Source: Clostridia bacterium (GTDB lineage: Bacteria; Bacillota; Clostridia; Oscillospirales; Acutalibacteraceae). From it: a stretch of 41,747 nt of DNA. The first letter of the stretch is position 1; every line of letters begins with the position of its first letter. Position numbers and translations under genes: made by a program. The notes beneath the pieces were generated by a model. It was not told the DNA's origin and did not search any database. It saw only the letters and a list, made by a program, of their open reading frames with translations. The stretch is taken from NCBI GenBank assembly GCA_017613735.1, contig JAGADF010000015.1, positions 1-41,747 of the forward strand. Direction: 5' to 3'. Shown piece by piece: positions 28,247 to 38,456 of this stretch.

Positions 28247-28275
28247 TTGACATTTATAATGTATTTTGATACAAT
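28247..28275 (+). promoter_or_regulatory. Promoter and possible operator of the sulfosugar operon
   Basis: TTGACA at 28247-28252, 17-base spacer, TACAAT at 28270-28275, about 31 bases before the glycosidase start. The inverted repeat TGTAT-TTTG-ATACA (28260-28273) covers the spacer end and most of the -10 box and could be a repressor site. No regulator gene lies in the operon. The rest of 28169-28246 is AT-rich without recognisable features. Confidence 0.72.
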
Positions 28276-28306
28276 TTAATGTAAGTAATTTTCGGAGGAA
28301 AAAACA

Positions 28307-30334
28307 ATGCTTTCTCTTAATTCCGACAAGAAAAATCTTAATATTATTTTTAATTCCGACGCGGTTCTCACCTTTTCAAAAAAAGAGCCTGTAATGTGGC
28401 TCGGCTACGGCGAGGACGGCTTTTCTATGTCGCGCGGTTCCTTTAAATTCAGGGAGAGCGTGAAGAGTAAAACCGCGCTGTACTACGATACTCACGAGGT
28501 GCTTAACGGCTCGGTTATTCTCAGACTGAAGTCCAAAAAGGATGAGCTCAGGGCGAACGTCACCGTTTCGACGCAGGGCGACATTGTTAAACTCACTCCC
28601 GAAATTTCAACACAGGGCGAATTTAACCGTATGTGGATTCGCATTCCCGCAACGGAGACCGAGCACGTCTACGGCTGCGGCGAGATTTTTACAAAATTCG
28701 ATTTACGCGGCGAAAAGGTCCGCATCTGGGTCGCCGAGCATCAGAACGCGACAAGGATTGCGAAAAAGACGGTCCGTGACATAATCCGCAAGCATCCGCA
28801 CCATATAGGCAGGTTTTCAAAGTATGAAAGCTATTACGCCCAGCCGACGTTTATGTCGTCAAGAAAATACTTTGTTCACGTTGACAGCAACGCCTATATG
28901 GATTTCAATTTTAACCAGACCGCTTTTCACGAGCTTGTCGTCCGCGATATCGCGCCGGTTTATTTCGGCTTTGCCGATACGTTTGAGGCGTTAAGCGGAG
29001 TTCTTTCGTCGCTTCTCGGAAGGCAGCCCGCTCTTCCCGAATGGGTTTATGACGGAACAATTCTCGGCATTCAGGGCGGTACTGAAACAATGCTCAGAAA
29101 GATTGAAACCGCCGAAAACGCGGGAGTAAAGGTCTGCGGCGTATGGTGTCAGGACTGGGAGGGCGAAAGAATAACCGCCTTCGGCAAGCAGCTTATGTGG
29201 AACTGGGTTTGGGACAGGGAACTGTATCCCGACCTTGATAAGGCTATTGCCGACCTGCACGAAAGAGGAATAAAATTCCTCGGCTATATCAATCCGTTCC
29301 TTGCGATTGAAAAGGAATTATACAAGGAAGCGACGGAAAAAGGCTACTGCGTAAAGGACGCGAACGGCGAGGATTACCTTGTTAAAATCACAACCTTCCC
29401 AGCGGCTATGATTGACCTTACGAATCCCGACGCTTACGAGTGGATTAAGAATATTATAAAGGAAAATATGATAGGTCTGGGCCTCGACGGCTGGATGGCG
29501 GATTTTTCCGAGTATCTGCCGACCGACTGTGTTCTTTCAAACGGTATGAATGCAAAGGACATTCACAACACCTGGCCCGCTCTCTGGGCGAAGGTCAACC
29601 GCGAAGCGCTTGAGGAGACGGGAAAGCTCGGCGAAATCGTTTTCTTCACCCGCGCGGGACATACAAATACAATTAAGTATTCGACTCTTATGTGGAACGG
29701 CGACCAGCACGTTGACTTTTCCTATGATGACGGTCTGCCGTCGGTTATTCCCGCTACGCTTTCGCTTGCGGTCAGCGGTTTCGGACTCTGTCACAGCGAT
29801 ATAGGCGGTTACACGACCTTCGGCAAAATGAAAAGAAACGAAGAGCTGTTTATGCGCTGGTCTGAGATGAACGTCTTTACGCCTATGTTCAGAGGTCACG
29901 AGGGCAATCAGCCGAACAACAACACCCAGTTCGATAAAAACGAAGCCGTTCTTGCGCATTACGCGAAAATGTCAAGACTTCATTACGGTCTTAAGGATTA
30001 CATAAAGGCTCTTGTTGCCGAAAACAGTCAGTACGGCGTGCCCGTAAACAGACCGCTTTTCTATTACTATGAAAAGGAAAAGGATTTTTCCGAAACATAC
30101 GAATTTATGCTCGGCAGGGATTTGCTTGTCGCGCCGGTGCTTGAAGAGGGCGAAAGCTCAAGAAGCGTTTACCTTCCCGATGACGAATGGGTAAATCTCT
30201 GGAACGGTTACGAGCTTGTAGGCGGAACCTACAATATCGACGCTCCCTTAGGCGAGCCGCCCGTATTCTGCAGAAAATCGAGCTCGTATCTTGAGCAGTT
30301 CAAAGCCCTGTTCAATTCGGAAAAGAATAACTGA
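28307..30334 (+). CDS. Sulfoquinovosidase-like GH31 glycosidase
   Basis: Family 31 retaining alpha-glycosidase of 675 residues, closest to E. coli YihQ, which frees sulfoquinovose from sulfoquinovosyl glycerol. The nucleophile is Asp399 (WMADFSEYLPTD) and the acid/base Asp466 (GDQHVDFS), equal to Asp405 and Asp472 of YihQ. Of the signature residues Gln262, Gln288, Arg301, Trp304 and Tyr508, the window has Gln256, Gln282, Gln295, Trp298 and Tyr502: the sulfonate-binding Arg is Gln. There is no signal peptide, so it acts in the cytosol on imported substrate. CGGAGG precedes ATG 28307. First gene of a seven-gene operon. Substrate is inferred. Confidence 0.88.
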   Translation: MLSLNSDKKNLNIIFNSDAVLTFSKKEPVMWLGYGEDGFSMSRGSFKFRESVKSKTALYYDTHEVLNGSVILRLKSKKDELRANVTVSTQGDIVKLTPEISTQGEFNRMWIRIPATETEHVYGCGEIFTKFDLRGEKVRIWVAEHQNATRIAKKTVRDIIRKHPHHIGRFSKYESYYAQPTFMSSRKYFVHVDSNAYMDFNFNQTAFHELVVRDIAPVYFGFADTFEALSGVLSSLLGRQPALPEWVYDGTILGIQGGTETMLRKIETAENAGVKVCGVWCQDWEGERITAFGKQLMWNWVWDRELYPDLDKAIADLHERGIKFLGYINPFLAIEKELYKEATEKGYCVKDANGEDYLVKITTFPAAMIDLTNPDAYEWIKNIIKENMIGLGLDGWMADFSEYLPTDCVLSNGMNAKDIHNTWPALWAKVNREALEETGKLGEIVFFTRAGHTNTIKYSTLMWNGDQHVDFSYDDGLPSVIPATLSLAVSGFGLCHSDIGGYTTFGKMKRNEELFMRWSEMNVFTPMFRGHEGNQPNNNTQFDKNEAVLAHYAKMSRLHYGLKDYIKALVAENSQYGVPVNRPLFYYYEKEKDFSETYEFMLGRDLLVAPVLEEGESSRSVYLPDDEWVNLWNGYELVGGTYNIDAPLGEPPVFCRKSSSYLEQFKALFNSEKNN

Positions 30335-30363
30335 TAAATTATTCCAAGGAGGAACTTTTATAA

Positions 30364-31674
30364 ATGAAAAAGGTTAAAATCGGCGTAGTTTGTCTTGCGA
30401 GAAAGACCTACGATTTTGAAGCGGCGGCTGAAATATACGCCGACTTACAGAAAAGATTAAAGGCGAGAGACGACGTTGAATTTGTATTTGTCGACGGCCT
30501 TGTAATTGAGGTTGACGAGGCGCAGAAGGCTGCGGCTTATCTCGCGGGGCAGGAGCTTGACGGCGTCGCGATTATCAGCGGCACGTTCCATCTCGGCCAC
30601 CTTGCGCCGACTATAAAAAAGTCGCTTAAATGCCCCGTACTTCTCTGGGCGTTCAACGAGCTTCCCTATAACGGCGGCAAAATCAGACTTAATTCGGTCT
30701 GCGGACTTAATCTCAACGCGTCCGTTTTCTATAAATCGGGTATTGACGATTATTCCTGCCACGTAGGCGACGATATTGACGAGGTATGGCTTAACGTTAT
30801 TAAGATGAAAGCGGCGATTTCCCACGCTCATATCGGTCTTGCGGGTTACAGGGCGGACGGTTTCTTCAATCTTTCGGTTGAGGACACCTATCTCTTTAAC
30901 CGCACGGGCGTTCTTGTTGACCACTATGAATTAAGCGAGCTTATGAATGAGTATAAAATGGCTGAAACGGGCTTTACCGTTGACCAGGTCAGGGACATTT
31001 ACGATTGCTCCGACATAAACGAAACACAGCTTGACAAGGTTGCCGTTCTTTCACGCTCGATGGAGAATTTTATAAACAAAAACAAGCTTGACGCGCTTGC
31101 AATCCGTTGCTGGCCCGAATTTGCGAATACGTTCGGAACCTCTCCCTGCGCGGCGATGAGCCTTCTTCAGGGCAAGGGCTATACGCTCGGCTGCGAGGGC
31201 GATATCGAAGGCACTCTTTCGCTTCTTGCGTGCAACGCCATTGCGAAGGACCCGGCTTTTCTTGCAGACCTTTCACAGGTTAATTTTGAAGAAAACTACG
31301 CTCTTCTCTGGCACTGCGGCGTTGCGGCTTACCCGCTCTGGGACGGAAAATCGCTCCGCTCGCTCGACACCTATTTCGCGGGCGGCAGGGGAGTTACGGC
31401 AGGCTTTGTTATGAAGAGCGGAACGATTACGGTTATGAGAATCGACACTGCGCGCGGCAAAACAAGACTCTTTATAGGCAGGGGCGAGGCGGTTCCCATG
31501 GAGCGCGAGCTTTCGGGAACATACGCAAAGGTCATCTTTGACCAGCCTATTTCCGAGCTTATTGATACCGTTACCGAAACGGGCGTCGCTCACCATATTT
31601 CAATGATTTACGGCGATTACGTTAAGGAAATGAAATTGTTCGCCCGTCTTATGGGCTTTGAGGTGATTGAATAA
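30364..31674 (+). CDS. L-fucose-isomerase-fold sugar isomerase (candidate sulfoquinovose isomerase)
   Basis: Protein of 436 residues in the fucose/arabinose isomerase fold. Likely metal or catalytic residues are Glu252 (CWPEF), Asp280 (CEGDIEG) and His317 (LWHCG). In Firmicutes sulfoglycolysis clusters an isomerase of this type converts sulfoquinovose to 6-deoxy-6-sulfofructose (SftI/SqvD in published names, from memory). Here it sits between the glycosidase and a DUF4867 protein, which supports that role; an aldose-ketose step on another deoxysugar cannot be excluded. AAGGAGG precedes ATG 30364. Its stop overlaps the next start by one base. Confidence 0.8.
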   Translation: MKKVKIGVVCLARKTYDFEAAAEIYADLQKRLKARDDVEFVFVDGLVIEVDEAQKAAAYLAGQELDGVAIISGTFHLGHLAPTIKKSLKCPVLLWAFNELPYNGGKIRLNSVCGLNLNASVFYKSGIDDYSCHVGDDIDEVWLNVIKMKAAISHAHIGLAGYRADGFFNLSVEDTYLFNRTGVLVDHYELSELMNEYKMAETGFTVDQVRDIYDCSDINETQLDKVAVLSRSMENFINKNKLDALAIRCWPEFANTFGTSPCAAMSLLQGKGYTLGCEGDIEGTLSLLACNAIAKDPAFLADLSQVNFEENYALLWHCGVAAYPLWDGKSLRSLDTYFAGGRGVTAGFVMKSGTITVMRIDTARGKTRLFIGRGEAVPMERELSGTYAKVIFDQPISELIDTVTETGVAHHISMIYGDYVKEMKLFARLMGFEVIE

Positions 31675-32345
31675 TGCTCAAGGCATTACAGGCGAAAAAC
31701 CCTCATTTAAAAATACTTGATATTTCTTCTGAGGAATTCGGAAAGTACGGCGAAATTCTGTCGCCGGAGCCGTTTGAGGAGCTTTCCGAAAAAATGAAGA
31801 GCACTCCGCTCCCCGCGGAAGGCAATATTTACGTCGCTTCGGACGAGGAACTCGAAAAGCTTGATATCTTTCAGAAGCTTGAGAGCAATTACTACGGCGG
31901 AATGCCCGTTGAAATAGGCTACTGCAACGGTCAGAATACAAAAATCAACGCTCTTGAATACCATAAGGGCGAGGAAATCAATCTTGCCGTAACGGACCTT
32001 GCGCTGTTTCTCGGTCAGGTTCAGCAGCTTAAAGACAACACCATTTCGACAGACGAGCTTGAATGCTTTTTTGTGCCGAAGGGCACGGCGTATTCGATGT
32101 ACCCGACCACTCTTCACTTTTCGCCGTGTAAGGTTCACGAAAGCGGCTTCCTTTGCGCGGTAATTCTGCCGAGAGGCACGAATTCGCCGTTAAAGGAAAA
32201 AACGGAAGAAATATTTAAAAACGATAAAACCCTCTGGATGACAAACAAATGGCTCATAGGCCATAAGGAGAGCCGCCCAGTTTCAAACGGAGCGTTCTGC
32301 GGTCTCGGGGGAGAAAACTACGAACTTAAGCCACTGGAGGATTAA
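31674..32345 (+). CDS. DUF4867 family protein (cupin-like)
   Basis: Product of 223 residues, start and preceding stop overlapping in TAATG. It resembles the DUF4867 family, with a putative metal site in LEYHKGEEINLAVTDLALFL and further residues in FFVPKGTAYSMYP and TTLHFSPCKVHESG. The fold looks cupin-like. Members are found in sulfoquinovose clusters of Firmicutes (SftX, as I recall) without a firmly assigned reaction. A mutarotase or isomerase-helper role is possible but is only inference. The next gene starts after one base. Confidence 0.75.
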   Translation: MLKALQAKNPHLKILDISSEEFGKYGEILSPEPFEELSEKMKSTPLPAEGNIYVASDEELEKLDIFQKLESNYYGGMPVEIGYCNGQNTKINALEYHKGEEINLAVTDLALFLGQVQQLKDNTISTDELECFFVPKGTAYSMYPTTLHFSPCKVHESGFLCAVILPRGTNSPLKEKTEEIFKNDKTLWMTNKWLIGHKESRPVSNGAFCGLGGENYELKPLED

Positions 32346-32346
32346 A

Positions 32347-33471
32347 ATGAACTGGGATTTCCTTTTGCCCGTTAAGCTTTATTTCGGCTCGGGCAGAATA
32401 AACGAGCTTTCCGACATTATTGACGCGAAGGGCTATAAAAGAGGCGTTCTTGTCTGCGACGGGATTTTTAAAGATAACGGACTTGCGGATGAGATTGTTA
32501 AAAAAAGCGGCGGAAAGCTGACTGCCGTATTTTCCGATATTACGCCTAATCCCACGACCGATAACGTCAACAACTGCGTTTCGCTTTTAAGGAGCGAAAA
32601 CGCCGAATTTGTAGTGGCTCTCGGCGGCGGAAGTTCAATGGACTGCGCAAAGGCTGCCTGCGCGATTAAGAATTCGGACGACTTGATTGACGATTACCAC
32701 GCGGGGCTTAAAAAGCTTAATCCCGCCGATAAAATCCCGCTTATTGCCGTTCCGACTACCGCGGGCACGGGCAGCGAGGTCACCTTTGTATCGGTGCTTA
32801 CCAATGAAAAAAAGTCGCTTAAGGCTCCGCTCGGCAATCCTCTTCTTTATGCCGAGGCGGCGATAATCGACCCCGAATTAACTCTTTCGGTACCCGCAAG
32901 GGTAACCGCTTCAACGGGACTTGACGTGCTTTCTCACGCGCTTGAGGGTTACTGGAGCATTTACCATCAGCCAATCTGCGACGCGGTTTCGCTTTCGGCG
33001 GCGAGAACTGTTTTCGAGTATCTTCCCGAGGTTTTTGAAAACCCGTCCGATTTAAAGGCGAGAGAAAAAATGTGCGAGGCGTCGCTTCTTGCGGGCATAG
33101 GCTTTTCCTACCCGAAAACAACCGGCTCGCACGCCTGCTCGTTCCCGCTGACGAATATATATCACGTTCCTCACGGCGAGGCGTGCGCGTTCACGCTTGA
33201 CTATTTCCTTCGCCTTAACGCGAGGGAGGAAACCGACGGCAGAATCGACCGCTTCGTAAAGGACTGCGGTTTCGAAAATGCCGAAAAGGCGGCTGACAGA
33301 ATTTCAGAAATGAAAAAGGCTTTCGGTATGCGCTGCACTCTCGGTGAAATCGGCGTCAGGGATGAAGATATAAGGGAACTGAGCGAAAAGAGTATGCATC
33401 CGAATATGCTTAACAATCCCGTTAAAATGACGGTTGAATCTGTTGAAGAAATGTACAGGGCGCTTAAATGA
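32347..33471 (+). CDS. Iron-containing alcohol dehydrogenase (candidate sulfolactaldehyde reductase)
   Basis: Group III metal-dependent dehydrogenase of 374 residues. The nucleotide-binding motif is ALGGGSSMDCAKA. The four metal ligands are intact: Asp193 and His197 (GLDVLSHALEG), His262 (GSHACSF) and His276 (VPHGEAC), with the usual spacing. In this context it most likely reduces 3-sulfolactaldehyde to 2,3-dihydroxypropanesulfonate with NADH, regenerating NAD in fermentation. GGAGG precedes ATG 32347. The stop overlaps the exporter start (ATGA). Substrate not proven. Confidence 0.82.
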   Translation: MNWDFLLPVKLYFGSGRINELSDIIDAKGYKRGVLVCDGIFKDNGLADEIVKKSGGKLTAVFSDITPNPTTDNVNNCVSLLRSENAEFVVALGGGSSMDCAKAACAIKNSDDLIDDYHAGLKKLNPADKIPLIAVPTTAGTGSEVTFVSVLTNEKKSLKAPLGNPLLYAEAAIIDPELTLSVPARVTASTGLDVLSHALEGYWSIYHQPICDAVSLSAARTVFEYLPEVFENPSDLKAREKMCEASLLAGIGFSYPKTTGSHACSFPLTNIYHVPHGEACAFTLDYFLRLNAREETDGRIDRFVKDCGFENAEKAADRISEMKKAFGMRCTLGEIGVRDEDIRELSEKSMHPNMLNNPVKMTVESVEEMYRALK

Positions 33472-34220
33472 GTGGTTTTATCAGGTATGCGTTAATAGGA
33501 ATAATTGTCCTTCTCGCCAATATTCTTGAATCCATAACGGGCTTCGGCGCAACGGTTGCGGAGCTGCCGTTTGTTTCGGCTCTTGTCGGCATTAAAACGG
33601 CTGTCGTCGCCCTTTGTATGGTAAGCCTGACTCTTGCTGTTTTTGTAGTAATAAGGTTTCATAAGGATATTGACAAAAAGGCGTATCTTAATATTGTCGG
33701 CTTTGCGCTTCTCGGTATGCCCGTAGGTATGCTCGCGTTTTCATACCTGCCCGAAAGGGCTTTGAAAATCGCTCTCGGAATATTCATTATTCTTGCGGCG
33801 GCGCGCGGATTTTTCGTTTTGTTTTCAAAAAAAGAGAACAGAAAACCGGTTAACGGCATAGTTCTTCGGATTCTTCTCTTCATAGGCGGAGTCGTTCACG
33901 GCGCGTTCGCGTCGGGCGGGCCGTTCCTTGTAATATATGCGGGCGAAAAAATCAGGGAAAAAGGCTCTTTCAGGGCGACAATGTGCTCGGTCTGGGCGAC
34001 GCTCAATTCCGTATTGCTTATTAAATACATAATTACGGGGGATTTTACCGTCAAAACCGTAATGCCCGTTTATCTTCTTGCGATTCCGTTTCTGGCTGTG
34101 GGAGTTGCAATCGGAATGTTCTTACATAAAAAGGTCAGCCAGAAGGTTTTTTCAATCATTGTTTACTGTATACTGCTTGCGGCAGGCTGCACCATGCTCG
34201 GTCTGGCAATAGCGGGGTAA
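33468..34220 (+). CDS. TauE/SafE-family sulfonate or sulfite exporter
   Basis: Membrane protein of 250 residues with about eight hydrophobic segments and two half-repeat motifs, ESITGFGATVAELPFVS and GGVVHGAFASGGPFLVI, typical of the TSUP/TauE family. Such proteins export sulfur-containing anions. Next to a putative sulfolactaldehyde reductase it is the natural exit for dihydroxypropanesulfonate or sulfolactate, the C3 waste of sulfoglycolysis. It overlaps the dehydrogenase by four bases. Confidence 0.85.
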   Translation: MSGFIRYALIGIIVLLANILESITGFGATVAELPFVSALVGIKTAVVALCMVSLTLAVFVVIRFHKDIDKKAYLNIVGFALLGMPVGMLAFSYLPERALKIALGIFIILAAARGFFVLFSKKENRKPVNGIVLRILLFIGGVVHGAFASGGPFLVIYAGEKIREKGSFRATMCSVWATLNSVLLIKYIITGDFTVKTVMPVYLLAIPFLAVGVAIGMFLHKKVSQKVFSIIVYCILLAAGCTMLGLAIAG

Positions 34221-34250
34221 AAATATGTTTCTGCAAAATGAGGTGTTTTT

Positions 34251-35687
34251 ATGGCAGAAAGTTCTTTGACTCACGGTATTAAGTTTAAGGACAAAGTCGG
34301 CTATGCTCTCGGTGACGCGGGCGGTCTTCTGACCTTTTCGCTTATAGGAGCATTCCAGAATAAGTTTTATACCGACGCTCTGGGGATAAAGCCCGAAAGC
34401 ATTATACTGCTTATTCTCATAGCGAGAATCTGGGACGCAATCAACGACCCGCTCTGGGGCGCGTTTGTTCAGTCGAGAAAACCGAAAAAGAGCGGTCAGT
34501 TCAGGCCGTGGATTATCGGATTTTCCATCCCGCTTGCCATATCGGCGGTGCTTATGTTCTTTAAGATTCCCGGCCTTAACGGCACTCAGTATCTTATCTA
34601 CGCTTATATTACCTATATCGCGTACGGTATGATGTATACCGCCGTAAACATTCCCTACGGCTCTCTCGCTTCGGTTGTAACCGACGACGAGCTTGAGCGC
34701 TCTTCGCTTTCAATGTGGCGTTCAATAGGCGCGGGCGTAGGCGGACTTCCCGGAACAATAGTTCTTCCGATGATTGTTTTCACCGTTACGGGAAAATATG
34801 CAAACGGCACGGACATCAAGGCGCTTGACGACAAAAAGCTTTTCTATTGTGTGCTTGTACTCGCGGCGGTTTCCGTTCTTGTATATTTCCTGCACTACAA
34901 GATGACAAAAGAGCGTATCGCTCCGCAGGAAAAGAAAAAGGATGAGCACTATAACGCGGTTGCGACGGTCAAGGCGTTGTTTAGGAACAGAGCTTTCGTT
35001 ACCCTGTCGCTTGCCTCGATGCTTCTTATCGCTTTCCAGTTTTATTATCAGTCGACCTATACGTATCTTTTCACCGACTATTACGGAAAGCCAGGTTTTT
35101 ACGCGTTTGTAACTATCTGCACATACGGACCTATGGCGATATTCATTCCGATAATGAACAGACTTATAAGAAAGTTCGGCAAGAAAGAGCTTTGCGCCGT
35201 AGGCATGGCTTTCGCTGCGGTTGCGAACATAGGACTTTTTGTCCTCCGCTGGACTGCGCTTGCTCACAACCCGTTTGTATTCCTCGGCTTTACCTTCCTT
35301 TCGGGACTCGGTCAGACCTTCCTTGTTCTTGAGGTCTGGGCGCTCGTTATGGACGTTATCGACTATCACGAGGTCAGAACGGGCAAGCGTGAAGAGGGTA
35401 TGGCATACGCCGTATTCTCATTCACAAGAAAACTCGGTCAGACTCTTGCGGGCGTAGGTCTTAACGCGCTTCTTGCGTTCATAAAGTATGACGGCGAGCT
35501 TTCAAAGCAGGGCAAACCGCTCGGCGAGGACGTTCTTTCGAAACTTTATGACATTTCAACCATAGTTCCCGCAGTAATGCTCGCGCTTATGGCGATAATC
35601 CTTTTCTGCGGCTATAACCTTTCAAAGTCAAAGCTTGTTGAGGTTCACGAGCAGCTGGCGGAAGTAAGAAAACAGGAGGAAGCATAA
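34251..35687 (+). CDS. GPH-family importer, probably for sulfoquinovose or its glycoside
   Basis: Transporter of 478 residues with about 12 hydrophobic segments. GPH signatures are WDAINDPLWGAFVQSRKPKK and VMDVIDYHEVRTGKREEG. It lies inside the operon, so the imported compound should be the glycosidase substrate; E. coli uses a related GPH-type YihO/YihP pair for sulfoquinovose compounds. GAGGTG precedes ATG 34251. It shares only family features with the GPH protein at 23617-24993. Confidence 0.85.
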   Translation: MAESSLTHGIKFKDKVGYALGDAGGLLTFSLIGAFQNKFYTDALGIKPESIILLILIARIWDAINDPLWGAFVQSRKPKKSGQFRPWIIGFSIPLAISAVLMFFKIPGLNGTQYLIYAYITYIAYGMMYTAVNIPYGSLASVVTDDELERSSLSMWRSIGAGVGGLPGTIVLPMIVFTVTGKYANGTDIKALDDKKLFYCVLVLAAVSVLVYFLHYKMTKERIAPQEKKKDEHYNAVATVKALFRNRAFVTLSLASMLLIAFQFYYQSTYTYLFTDYYGKPGFYAFVTICTYGPMAIFIPIMNRLIRKFGKKELCAVGMAFAAVANIGLFVLRWTALAHNPFVFLGFTFLSGLGQTFLVLEVWALVMDVIDYHEVRTGKREEGMAYAVFSFTRKLGQTLAGVGLNALLAFIKYDGELSKQGKPLGEDVLSKLYDISTIVPAVMLALMAIILFCGYNLSKSKLVEVHEQLAEVRKQEEA

Positions 35688-36160
35688 TGAAAATCTCAAT
35701 CGGTTCGGACAAATCGGGTTATCCTTTGAGAAAAGAGCTTGAGGCTCATCTTAAGGAAAAAGGTATTGAGCTTACGGTTTACGGCCCCGCGAATGAAGAA
35801 GAGGCGGTTCCGTTCTATAAGGTTGCTCCGTGCGTTGCGAAGGACATTCAGGCGGGCAGCGCCGACCTCGGAATCCTTATCTGCGGAACGGGTATGGGTA
35901 TGTCTCAGGTCGCGAATAAGTTCAAAGGCGTCCGCGCGGCGTGCGTTGAAACGGTTTACGGCGCGAAGATGTGCAGGGTTATTAACGACTCGAACATTCT
36001 TTGTATGGGCGGCTGGATGATAGCTCCCGTTCTCGGCGTTTCAATGGTTGACGCTTTTCTTGACGCGCAGTTCGTAACGGGCGTTGAGGAATGGCGTAAG
36101 GAATGGCTTCAGAACGCCAAAAAGGAATTTGCCGCTCTTGAAGAGGAAATATATAAATAA
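35687..36160 (+). CDS. RpiB/LacAB-family isomerase with altered active site (candidate sulfoerythrose isomerase)
   Basis: Product of 157 residues, aligning almost without gaps to E. coli RpiB. The catalytic Cys66 (ICGTGMGMS) and Asn100 are kept. The ring-opening His99 is Ile99 (RVINDSN), phosphate-site Arg133 is Val133, and the DHxG motif is DKSG. Such changes argue against ribose 5-phosphate. Transketolase-type sulfoglycolysis has an RpiB-like isomerase acting on 4-deoxy-4-sulfoerythrose (SqwI, from memory), an open-chain, non-phosphorylated sugar. AGGAGG precedes the start, which overlaps the transporter stop by one base. Last gene of the operon. Confidence 0.8.
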   Translation: MKISIGSDKSGYPLRKELEAHLKEKGIELTVYGPANEEEAVPFYKVAPCVAKDIQAGSADLGILICGTGMGMSQVANKFKGVRAACVETVYGAKMCRVINDSNILCMGGWMIAPVLGVSMVDAFLDAQFVTGVEEWRKEWLQNAKKEFAALEEEIYK

Positions 36161-36176
36161 GTATTGATTTCTCATT

Positions 36177-36210
36177 TTGCCGCAGAGCAGACAAACCTGC
36201 CCTGCGGCAA
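36177..36210 (+). terminator. Hairpin at the end of the sulfosugar operon
   Basis: Perfect arms TTGCCGCAG (36177-36185) and CTGCGGCAA (36202-36210), with an inner GCAG/CTGC extension. A T run appears only about ten bases later (36221-36226), so it is an imperfect terminator or an RNA-stabilising 3' structure. The rest of 36211-36270 shows nothing clear. Confidence 0.6.
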
Positions 36211-36281
36211 GGGTGATTTCCTTTTTTGAGCAGACAGAAATATCTGTTGAAAAAATAAAATCACATCCCACGGAGGATTCT

Positions 36282-37592
36282 ATGTTTAATAAAAGAATAG
36301 TAAAGTTAATATCGCTGCTTCTTATTGTTTTATTCGCTTTTTCGCTTTCCCTTAGCGTTTTCGCCGAGGGCGAAACGGAAAAGACGACCGAAGAAACTAC
36401 TCAGCAGCAGTCTCAGGGCACAAAGAAGGAAAAGGAAATCGTCAGTCAGACGGTTATGGACGAATACAATAATCCCTCGGGCAGAATACTCTGCGTTTCC
36501 AAGCAGGGCGACGTTTCTTCCTACCCCGAAAACAGCTGGCAGGGAATAAAATCCGCTATCAAAAAGGGCGCGGACATAGTTGAAATCGACGTCAGCAAGA
36601 CCTCGGACGGTTTTCTTGTTCTTATGAAGGACGAGGATTTTACAAGAATGTGCGTTGACCCTGCGGGCAACACAATTACCTCAAAGGTCAGCGAAACCGA
36701 GTCCTGGGAAGTAATCGCCATGTGCCTTCGTCAGGGAAGAGGCGGCGAGGCTTCGGAGATTACCGAATATCATCCCCAGACTCTTGAAGCCGTTATCAAA
36801 GCAGTCGGCGACAAGGCGGTGCTTTTAATTAACTTTGATTCGGAAATAAGAGAAGAAGTCTTTGAGGAGGTTGCCTCTCTCGGCGCGGTCGACAGAGTTA
36901 TTTTTAAATTCGACTCTCAGGCGGGCGCGGTCAAAAAGTTTATTTCCGCTCACGAGGACAGCAAGGTCGCCGTAATGGGCTCTTATACGGGCAACGTAGT
37001 TTTTTCGGCGAGAAAATATATAAAGAAGATGCAGAAGAACAGCGTATCGTCCGTAATGCTCGGCGTTAAAAACCCCAATTCGGTAATCTTTGACAAGTCG
37101 GTTCTCGGTCTGTTTAACGATAGTTCGAGAGCGGCGGTTGATATGACTAACCCGAAAAAATGCGGTGAACGAGAGGACAACGAAAACGGCTGGAACGACC
37201 TTCTCGGCAGGGGATACAGCGTTATTGAAACTGACTACCCCGATAAGCTCGCAAGCTATATCAAGGGCTATGAAAAAGAGAAGGCGGCTCTTGAAAAGCT
37301 CTGCGAAAAGGCAAGGGCTCTGGATATGACAAAGTACGGCTATAAAACCTCCGAGACGCTTAAAAAAGAGCTCGAAAACAGCGAAAAGCTTTTAGCCGTT
37401 CATACCTCAAAGTTAAAAATTAACGAGCAGTATTCAAGACTTAACGGCGCGATAATGTCGCTTGACGCGGCGGACGGCTCGACAAACGGAAGAACAATCA
37501 CCGCGGGCAGGGTTATAGCGGCTTTACTGATAACGGCTCTGTTTGCTTTTGTTCAGGTTGTTGTTTACAGGCATTCCCGAAAAGATAAATAA
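36282..37592 (+). CDS. Membrane-anchored glycerophosphodiester phosphodiesterase homologue lacking catalytic His
   Basis: Product of 436 residues from ATG 36282 (CGGAGG at 36271-36276). Signal peptide or N-terminal anchor MFNKRIVKLISLLLIVLFAF, a Thr/Gln/Lys-rich linker, then a TIM-barrel GDPD domain and a C-terminal membrane segment (AALLITALFAFVQVVVY) followed by basic residues. YPENSW and GADIVEIDVSKTSDG match GDPD, with Glu101 and Asp103. The usual HRG motif reads SKQGD (73-77) and the second HD motif MKDED (115-119). With both acid/base histidines gone it is probably not an active diesterase. Confidence 0.82.
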   Translation: MFNKRIVKLISLLLIVLFAFSLSLSVFAEGETEKTTEETTQQQSQGTKKEKEIVSQTVMDEYNNPSGRILCVSKQGDVSSYPENSWQGIKSAIKKGADIVEIDVSKTSDGFLVLMKDEDFTRMCVDPAGNTITSKVSETESWEVIAMCLRQGRGGEASEITEYHPQTLEAVIKAVGDKAVLLINFDSEIREEVFEEVASLGAVDRVIFKFDSQAGAVKKFISAHEDSKVAVMGSYTGNVVFSARKYIKKMQKNSVSSVMLGVKNPNSVIFDKSVLGLFNDSSRAAVDMTNPKKCGEREDNENGWNDLLGRGYSVIETDYPDKLASYIKGYEKEKAALEKLCEKARALDMTKYGYKTSETLKKELENSEKLLAVHTSKLKINEQYSRLNGAIMSLDAADGSTNGRTITAGRVIAALLITALFAFVQVVVYRHSRKDK

Positions 37593-37604
37593 AGGAGCAA
37601 AATT

Positions 37605-38456
37605 ATGGTAGGTGTTATTGATGTGGGCGGCGGGCTTCGCGATATTTACGGCGCGGGCGTTTTTGACTGGTGTATTGATAACGGCGTTACCTTTGACTAC
37701 GGCATAGGCGTTTCCGCGGGAAGCGGAAATATGATGAATTTCCTGACGGGGCAGAGGGGAAGAACCTTCGGCTTTTACCATTTCTTTGCCTTCCGCAAGG
37801 AATATATGAGCGCGGGCAATTTTATAAAGAATCACTCGTATATAGACCTCGATTACATATACGGAAAGATGACCAATTCCGACGGCGAATACCCGTTTGA
37901 CTACGAAAAATTCGCCGAAAACCCGATGAAATATACGATTGTCGCGACTGACGCCGAAACCTGCGAGCCGCATTATTTCGACAAAAGCGAAATCAAAAAG
38001 GACTGCTATGACATCATAAAGGCGTCGTGTGCGATTCCCTTTGTCTGCAAGCCCATTAATATTGACGGCAGGGATTACTATGACGGCGGAGTAGCCGACC
38101 CGGTTCCGCTGAAAAAGGCCTATGAGGACGGCTGCGACTTCGTTGTGGTTATTCTCACGCTGCCGCGCGATTACAGAATGGAAGGCGGCGGAAAGGACGC
38201 TTTCGCGGCGAGAATGCTCAATGACAAATACCCGAATATGTCGCACGGACTTTACGCGAGATTCGATATATATAATCAGCAGATAAACTATCTTGAAAAG
38301 ATGGAACGCGAGGGCAGGGCGCTTATTATCGCTCCCGACGACCTTTGCGGAATGACGACTCTTTCAAAGGACCGCGAGAAAATGAGAAAAATGTACGAAA
38401 AGGGCTATGAGGACGCGAAAATTCTTAAGGATTGCGTTTTTCTGAATATGAAATAA
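37605..38456 (+). CDS. Patatin-like phospholipase/acyl hydrolase
   Basis: Cytosolic protein of 283 residues with the patatin Ser-Asp dyad. Oxyanion loop GGGLRDIYGAG (8-18), nucleophile Ser37 in GVSAGSGN, and Asp in YYDGGVADPVPL near residue 165. It resembles the bacterial YjjU-like group. The substrate is presumably a lipid acyl ester. AAAGGAGC precedes ATG 37605. It follows the GDPD homologue by 12 bases, so both are probably co-transcribed and concern membrane lipids or surface. Confidence 0.88.
   Translation: MVGVIDVGGGLRDIYGAGVFDWCIDNGVTFDYGIGVSAGSGNMMNFLTGQRGRTFGFYHFFAFRKEYMSAGNFIKNHSYIDLDYIYGKMTNSDGEYPFDYEKFAENPMKYTIVATDAETCEPHYFDKSEIKKDCYDIIKASCAIPFVCKPINIDGRDYYDGGVADPVPLKKAYEDGCDFVVVILTLPRDYRMEGGGKDAFAARMLNDKYPNMSHGLYARFDIYNQQINYLEKMEREGRALIIAPDDLCGMTTLSKDREKMRKMYEKGYEDAKILKDCVFLNMK

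Follow-up and report, generated by a model that had tools for sequence, protein, structure and literature searches.

Which enzyme cuts sulfofructose (SF) in an organism whose sulfosugar operon carries no recognizable gene for this step? The question is raised by a 41,747-nucleotide stretch of DNA, here called the window (contig JAGADF010000015.1 of an uncultured anaerobic Clostridia bacterium, genome G000), in which seven tightly spaced open reading frames (ORFs) on the forward strand span positions 28307–36160. An earlier interpretation made from the letters alone (the sequence-only reading) had described them as a tight operon for a YihQ-like GH31 glycosidase, a fucose-isomerase-fold isomerase, a DUF4867 protein, an iron-type dehydrogenase, a TauE/SafE exporter, a GPH importer and an RpiB-like protein, and the ORF coordinates, the Pfam and NCBIfam matches and the conservation of the operon in a sister species (G098) agree with this description. 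Three of the ORF junctions overlap (by 1–4 nt), and the remaining three are gaps of 1, 29, and 30 nt. The window contains 72 ORFs of at least 100 amino acids, many of them overlapping; a Pfam scan of 20 window proteins brought up no aldolase, transaldolase, transketolase, or sugar kinase. The host had also been called a gut Clostridium; this label is so far unestablished, and among named records 'Oscillospiraceae bacterium isolate SIG554' comes closest.

The operon is preceded by a sigma-70-type promoter on the same strand (28247..28275; TTGACA-17-TACAAT) that matches the consensus at 11 of 12 positions, and position 28247, from which the sequence-only reading had counted the operon, belongs to its -35 box. 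Both boxes are identical in the sister species (L040), and the spacer differs at two bases. An operator common to this promoter and the transketolase loci described below was sought with a promoter 22-mer (from 28261) and rejected: there was no match with fewer than five mismatches in L007 (the TKA locus) and none with up to six mismatches in L008 (the TKB locus). The lack of a copy of the promoter motif at TKA counts against the proposal made below for this enzyme. Two tRNA-Ser genes lie directly upstream of the operon, and a DUF4153 gene and otherwise mostly housekeeping genes are also found on this side. As to signs of a transfer of the operon, GC content has no marked shift over positions 1–40000 of the window. 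Downstream of the operon, GDPD-like and patatin-like genes (36177–38456) are present in both species; a part of their products in freeing the plant sulfosugar sulfoquinovose (SQ) from sulfolipid is possible.

The gene that is decisive for the type of pathway is the last of the seven (35687..36160, forward strand), which encodes an RpiB-like protein (PF02502, LacAB_rpiB). In the sulfo-transketolase (sulfo-TK) pathway of Clostridium sp. MSTE9, as presented in the available excerpts of two papers, SqvD, SqwGH, SqwI, SqwF, and SqwE take part, and SqwGH carries out two steps, the first with SF and the second with sulfoerythrulose as substrate, between which SqwI acts (PMC9594981, PMC12890257). An SqwI model (A1), built from five operon copies of which the window protein is itself one row, scores the window protein with 306 bits vs. 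134 bits for the genome's own RpiB (on C6). A tree built from 22 RpiB proteins and 20 proteins of the operon type separates the former with a bootstrap value of 100; the window and G098 proteins pair (100) and then join the homolog from G167, a genome of a second genus (99), and many other nodes within the operon-type part are weak. Scores and tree alike point to an SqwI ancestry, which favors the transketolase-type route, as the sequence-only reading had proposed from the presence of an RpiB-like gene. Given the pathway in PMC9594981, a retained SqwI would be of use only where some transketolase supplies sulfoerythrose.

Within the genus, SqwI-type proteins were found in two of 39 genomes (G000 and G098; the best score elsewhere in the genus is 137 bits), and, with the window's genome included each time, in nine of 398 genomes of the family sample and eight of 391 of the class sample at E 1e-43, and in six of 394 of the order sample at 170 bits or more. 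The neighborhoods of 20 SqwI loci were compared, taken from 19 genomes of the family, class, and order samples plus L041; G564 (151.6 bits, 2e-44) was left out of this set and of the tree. At 13 of the 20 loci the fetched stretch includes an intact split transketolase, and the one near SqwI in G955 falls outside the SqwGH clade. At the other seven (G000, G098, G167, G279, G340, G155, and G577) the fetched stretch holds no intact transketolase, and for the first three of these the search was extended to the whole genome.

This search agrees with the earlier claim that a dedicated cutting enzyme is absent. Transaldolase (PF00923) had no match in G000, G098, or G167, and PF00456 retrieved from each of them two split transketolases, here called TKA and TKB, and one weak match, which in G000 is DXS. 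In a tree of 32 split-transketolase pairs, which does not contain the cut-off TKA of G371, the SqwGH clade (12 pairs) has a bootstrap value of 100 and all six split enzymes of the three genomes fall outside it; no SqwGH-clade transketolase was thus found in these genomes. Likewise, the SqwGH signatures DPG..NGGTH and LPSHCD occur in none of the TKA and TKB loci examined. Phosphoketolase was rejected as the cutter, as it had no match in G000 or G167 and its sole match in G098 is TKA itself. In our assessment the balance tilts slightly toward a pathway with no dedicated enzyme for carbon–carbon cleavage, in which SF and sulfoerythrulose would be cleaved by an enzyme unlinked so far to sulfosugars (an unmodified housekeeping transketolase or TKB); SqwI alone would then mark the pathway, and surveys keyed to sqwGH or sftT would miss it.

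The best, if unproven, explanation is a sulfo-transketolase route without sqwGH in which the housekeeping transketolase TKA cuts SF, a proposal to which we give roughly even chances; sqwGH was probably lost from the operon. SQ glycosides would be imported, for which the operon offers a GPH-family cation symporter (34251..35687, forward strand; TIGR00792 292 bits, cut-off 231) as candidate SQ/SQ-glycerol-glycoside importer, the GH31 enzyme would cut them, and the isomerase would turn SQ into SF. TKA would then move C1–C2 of SF onto glyceraldehyde-3-phosphate, the operon SqwI would convert sulfoerythrose to sulfoerythrulose, and the same transketolase would remove a second C2 unit from the latter. 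The remaining sulfoacetaldehyde would be reduced to isethionate by the operon dehydrogenase and exported by the TauE/SafE protein (33468..34220, forward strand; PF01925), a candidate isethionate exporter in the role of SqwE with homologs also in L207, L041, L203, and L204. Since isethionate is the product of the sulfo-TK route with an iron-type alcohol dehydrogenase (Fe-ADH) in the excerpts of PMC9594981, it is the product to be expected here, instead of the dihydroxypropanesulfonate (DHPS) or sulfolactate that the sequence-only reading had suggested looking for. What is observed is the gene content, the SqwI ancestry, the failure to find a transaldolase or SqwGH, and purifying selection; every catalytic step, above all the acceptance of SF and sulfoerythrulose by TKA, is what we infer.

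TKA (G000:C8; L007:10056–11846) is part of a gene block, DivIVA-lspA-rluD-HAD-tktN-tktC, that is complete in G000, G098, G327, G271, and G102, lacks HAD in G200, G371, and G174 and both DivIVA and HAD in G167, and was not found at the copy read in G387 (L124). Its C-subunit matches the solved split transketolase 6yaj with 393 bits, transketolase motifs are present, and sugar phosphates are presumably already handled by this enzyme. In transketolases a single pocket serves both donor and acceptor, which means that SqwGH itself must accept phosphate and sulfonate ends. A comparison of 10 SqwGH pairs with nine TKA revealed 20 fixed replacements; left out were the SqwGH-like pairs of G925 and G903, the third pair of G387, G955, the second pair of G903, and the TKA of G371, which is cut off. 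Two of the replacements, His to Asp and Asp to Asn in SqwH, align with chain positions 416 and 424, respectively, of 4kxu/6ha3; we take 4kxu to be human TKT and these positions to be phosphate- and donor-binding residues there. The TKA of G000, G098, and G167 have the ordinary residues at both positions, and no TKA has the SqwGH replacements. The sequence-only reading had implied that a transketolase encoded elsewhere, perhaps the housekeeping one, does the cutting. As the TKA pocket keeps the ordinary residues that SqwGH replaced, interchangeability of the two enzymes cannot be assumed.

For the lineages that have the operon, we also considered whether TKA or TKB has converged on SqwGH; the signal is suggestive at most (P 0.09 and 0.15, respectively). 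The TKA of G000 and G098 have the SqwGH-majority residue at six of 43 unique sites, the top share of eight lineages, vs. 2/68 to 13/113 in the other seven (pooled 32/462; Fisher P 0.09, with sites that are not independent). One of the six residues lies in an active-site loop, which reads AGVSAGED vs. AGISVGED in most relatives. We regard these residues as a hint and not as evidence of adaptation.

Instead of TKA, the second split transketolase might cut SF. TKB (L008:9535–11429) is encoded in a block (L008:7466–12268; G000:C9) with an SCP2-like protein, a class III aminotransferase, and a 268-aa protein (X268) that has no Pfam match. It was found in eight of 10 genomes searched (not in G174 and G387), always with these three partners, and the block of G167 has a 2.8-kb gap. 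TKB is a full split transketolase in G000, G098, and G167, and in all eight copies the ATRDAYG motif is without its Arg and the GED motif without its Asp, so that TKB is not an ordinary sugar-phosphate transketolase. Moreover, the TKB of G000, G098, and G271 form their own subclade (bootstrap 100), all three of these genomes have sulfosugar clusters, and of the unique residues five of 57 are common to SqwGH vs. one of 48 in the group of G200, G327, and G371. These last three genomes, however, possess both TKA and TKB and have no isomerase match at 1e-30, the cluster of G271 is of the transaldolase type, and the block has a mixed history within the genus. In a comparison with two SqwG/SqwH pairs, TKB furthermore reaches just 39–43% and 33–35% identity, respectively. 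We consider it unlikely to be the cutting enzyme and retain TKA as the preferred candidate.

The loss of sqwGH on which the TKA proposal relies has a parallel in other genomes, which also invites the reading that the pathway is broken, with SF left uncut and the operon on its way out. In G155, a frame-broken C-terminal SqwH remnant (L184 9564–9985) directly precedes SqwI and Fe-ADH genes, which shows that clusters of this kind can lose sqwGH; the SqwI locus of G577, too, has a fragment of the C-terminal part of SqwH. G155 had no isomerase match at 1e-30, and its entire pathway may be dying. The operon of the window, in contrast, is kept whole in G098 (L040/L046; protein identity 85–95%), with all seven genes intact in two species separated by dS values of 0.73–1.22 and with the promoter boxes conserved. 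The dN/dS ratios between G000 and G098 range from 0.044 to 0.091 across the seven genes, which argues that the conservation of the operon is not due to chance. Such purifying selection on all seven genes suggests that the sulfosugar pathway is probably in use, and we regard decay as distinctly unlikely.

We attach a similarly low probability to the possibility that the substrate is another sulfosugar or sulfoglycoside and not SQ. The first gene (28307..30334, forward strand) encodes a GH31 enzyme of the sulfoquinovosidase (YihQ) type (NF007746 838 bits, cut-off 553; phmmer 711 bits against 5aed). The counterparts of YihQ D405 and D472 are present, as are those of Q262, Q288, W304, and Y508, and Gln stands at the R301 position, which speaks for another substrate; presumably the two Asp are catalytic, R301 is a sulfonate ligand, and the other four residues are sulfonate-binding. 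YihQ (5aed, 5aee), 8r56, and SftG (6pnr) all have Arg at the R301 position. Among 13 GH31 from the fetched sulfosugar loci, five have Arg and eight have Gln (the window, L040, L044, L047, L049, L050, L120, and L186). L120 is the transaldolase-type cluster of G271, and Gln is therefore no argument against a sulfosugar substrate. The second gene (30364..31674, forward strand; Fucose_iso_C) encodes a candidate sulfoquinovose isomerase that lies far under the cut-off of the SftI model (NF048012, 201 bits vs. 700), which points the same way as the Gln, and appears to belong to a clade divergent from SftI/SqvD. In L207 and L041, isomerases of the same clade nevertheless occur alongside sqwGH and a GH31 with Arg, and several further genomes have isomerases 52–62% identical to that of the window next to sqwGH or to a transaldolase gene.

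A sulfo-EMP2-like route, in which SF would be handled by the housekeeping phosphofructokinase and aldolase and SqwI would be left over as a relic, seems very unlikely. Both housekeeping enzymes are to be expected in the genome, and sulfo-EMP2 clusters also contain DUF4867 genes according to the excerpts of PMC11968277. Such a gene is the third of the operon (31674..32345, forward strand), which encodes a DUF4867 cupin (SqvB/SftX; PF16161 259 bits; 210 bits to the solved 9gyy). The excerpts of two papers propose the cupin as a helper for ring opening or mutarotation (PMC11968277, PMC9594981), and those of the former report that no mutarotase activity was detected (PMC11968277). An SF kinase and an SF-1-phosphate aldolase, however, are absent among the seven operon genes, and a dN/dS of 0.047 for SqwI indicates a constraint like that on the other operon genes, which speaks against a relic. 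The fourth gene (32347..33471, forward strand; PF00465/PF25137) encodes an iron-type alcohol dehydrogenase, the family given for SqwF in the excerpts of PMC9594981, whereas the sulfo-TAL cluster of G271 has a PF03446 reductase. As candidate sulfoacetaldehyde reductase in the role of SqwF, this enzyme is 56% identical to the Fe-ADH of the complete sulfo-TK cluster L207 and reaches 189 bits with the SarD model (cut-off 700). Finally, that an sqwGH pair exists and is missing from the assemblies is most improbable, for although G000 is 90.9% complete in 16 contigs and the GH31 match of G167 stops 423 bp short of a contig end (this contig carries just four of the seven operon genes, GH31, isomerase, SqwI, and GPH, a point against the TKA proposal), G098 is 99% complete in three contigs with the operon about 90 kb from the edge of one of 1.4 Mb, and an identical pair would need to be absent from three genomes.

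Compared with known systems, the operon is apparently not a sulfo-TK operon in the strict sense and resembles one in gene content and SqwI ancestry. It encodes a candidate isomerase and candidate SqwI, SqwF, and SqwE proteins together with GH31 and DUF4867, but the defining SqwGH was found neither in the operon nor in the genome, and the isomerase and GH31 come from divergent clades. What the operon encodes is a variant form of an already known pathway, a possibility that the sequence-only reading had raised. In L207 (G974, a member of another family), sqwGH is accompanied by homologs of every operon protein of the window except the GPH importer, six in all. The bifurcated transketolase/transaldolase (TK/TAL) pathway, described for Faecalicatena and Caproiciproducens in the excerpts of PMC13219744 and PMC11659671, also includes SqwI; gene sets of this type occur in G387, G976, G1015, and G889, and the first three have the isomerase clade of the window. 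This pathway, however, has both SqwGH and transaldolases, neither of which was found in the window's genome.

In the openly licensed literature searched, as far as its excerpts extend, no sulfo-TK cluster without its transketolase is described, which does not prove that none has been published (PMC11968277, PMC9594981, PMC13219744, PMC11659671, PMC12890257, PMC12330013); nor did this literature yield a proposal that a housekeeping transketolase acts on SF. A recent rumen study, in its excerpted text, takes the core of the route to consist of sqwG, sqwH, and sqwI (PMC13219744), and organisms like that of the window would score as incomplete under such a criterion. If a housekeeping transketolase suffices, the sulfo-TK route is possible as a smaller gene set, and TKA vs. 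SqwGH, with their 20 fixed differences, offers a direct test of phosphate-to-sulfonate adaptation. If it does not, the SF-cutting enzyme is still to be found.

The operon also shares features with the sulfo-TAL (sulfo-SFT) pathway, which comprises SftG, SftI, SftT, SftR, and SftX in Eubacterium rectale according to the excerpts of PMC11968277. G271, of the same genus as the window's organism, has a sulfo-TAL-type cluster instead (L120 4094–13177), with a PF03446 reductase and an ROK regulator. GH31, the isomerase family, and DUF4867 are common to this pathway and the operon, and TauE and GPH genes occur as in L120; in the window's genome, however, there is no transaldolase, the Fe-ADH replaces the PF03446 reductase, and SqwI is present. 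Where other genomes have a close isomerase (at least 55% identity), a transaldolase lies within 7 kb of it in G162, G393, G043, and G174, two flank it in G387, and in G102 one shares its contig at a distance of about 37 kb. Within the genus, five of the six members searched (G000, G098, G200, G327, and G371) have no transaldolase-family match, so that these bacteria seem to do without this enzyme in the pentose phosphate pathway. A contig labeled Candidatus Lokiarchaeota (L044 9228–13302) carries adjacent genes for a transaldolase, an SftI-like isomerase (53% identical to that of the window), and a GH31 enzyme, possibly a sulfo-TAL cluster in an Asgard archaeon or else a binning error.
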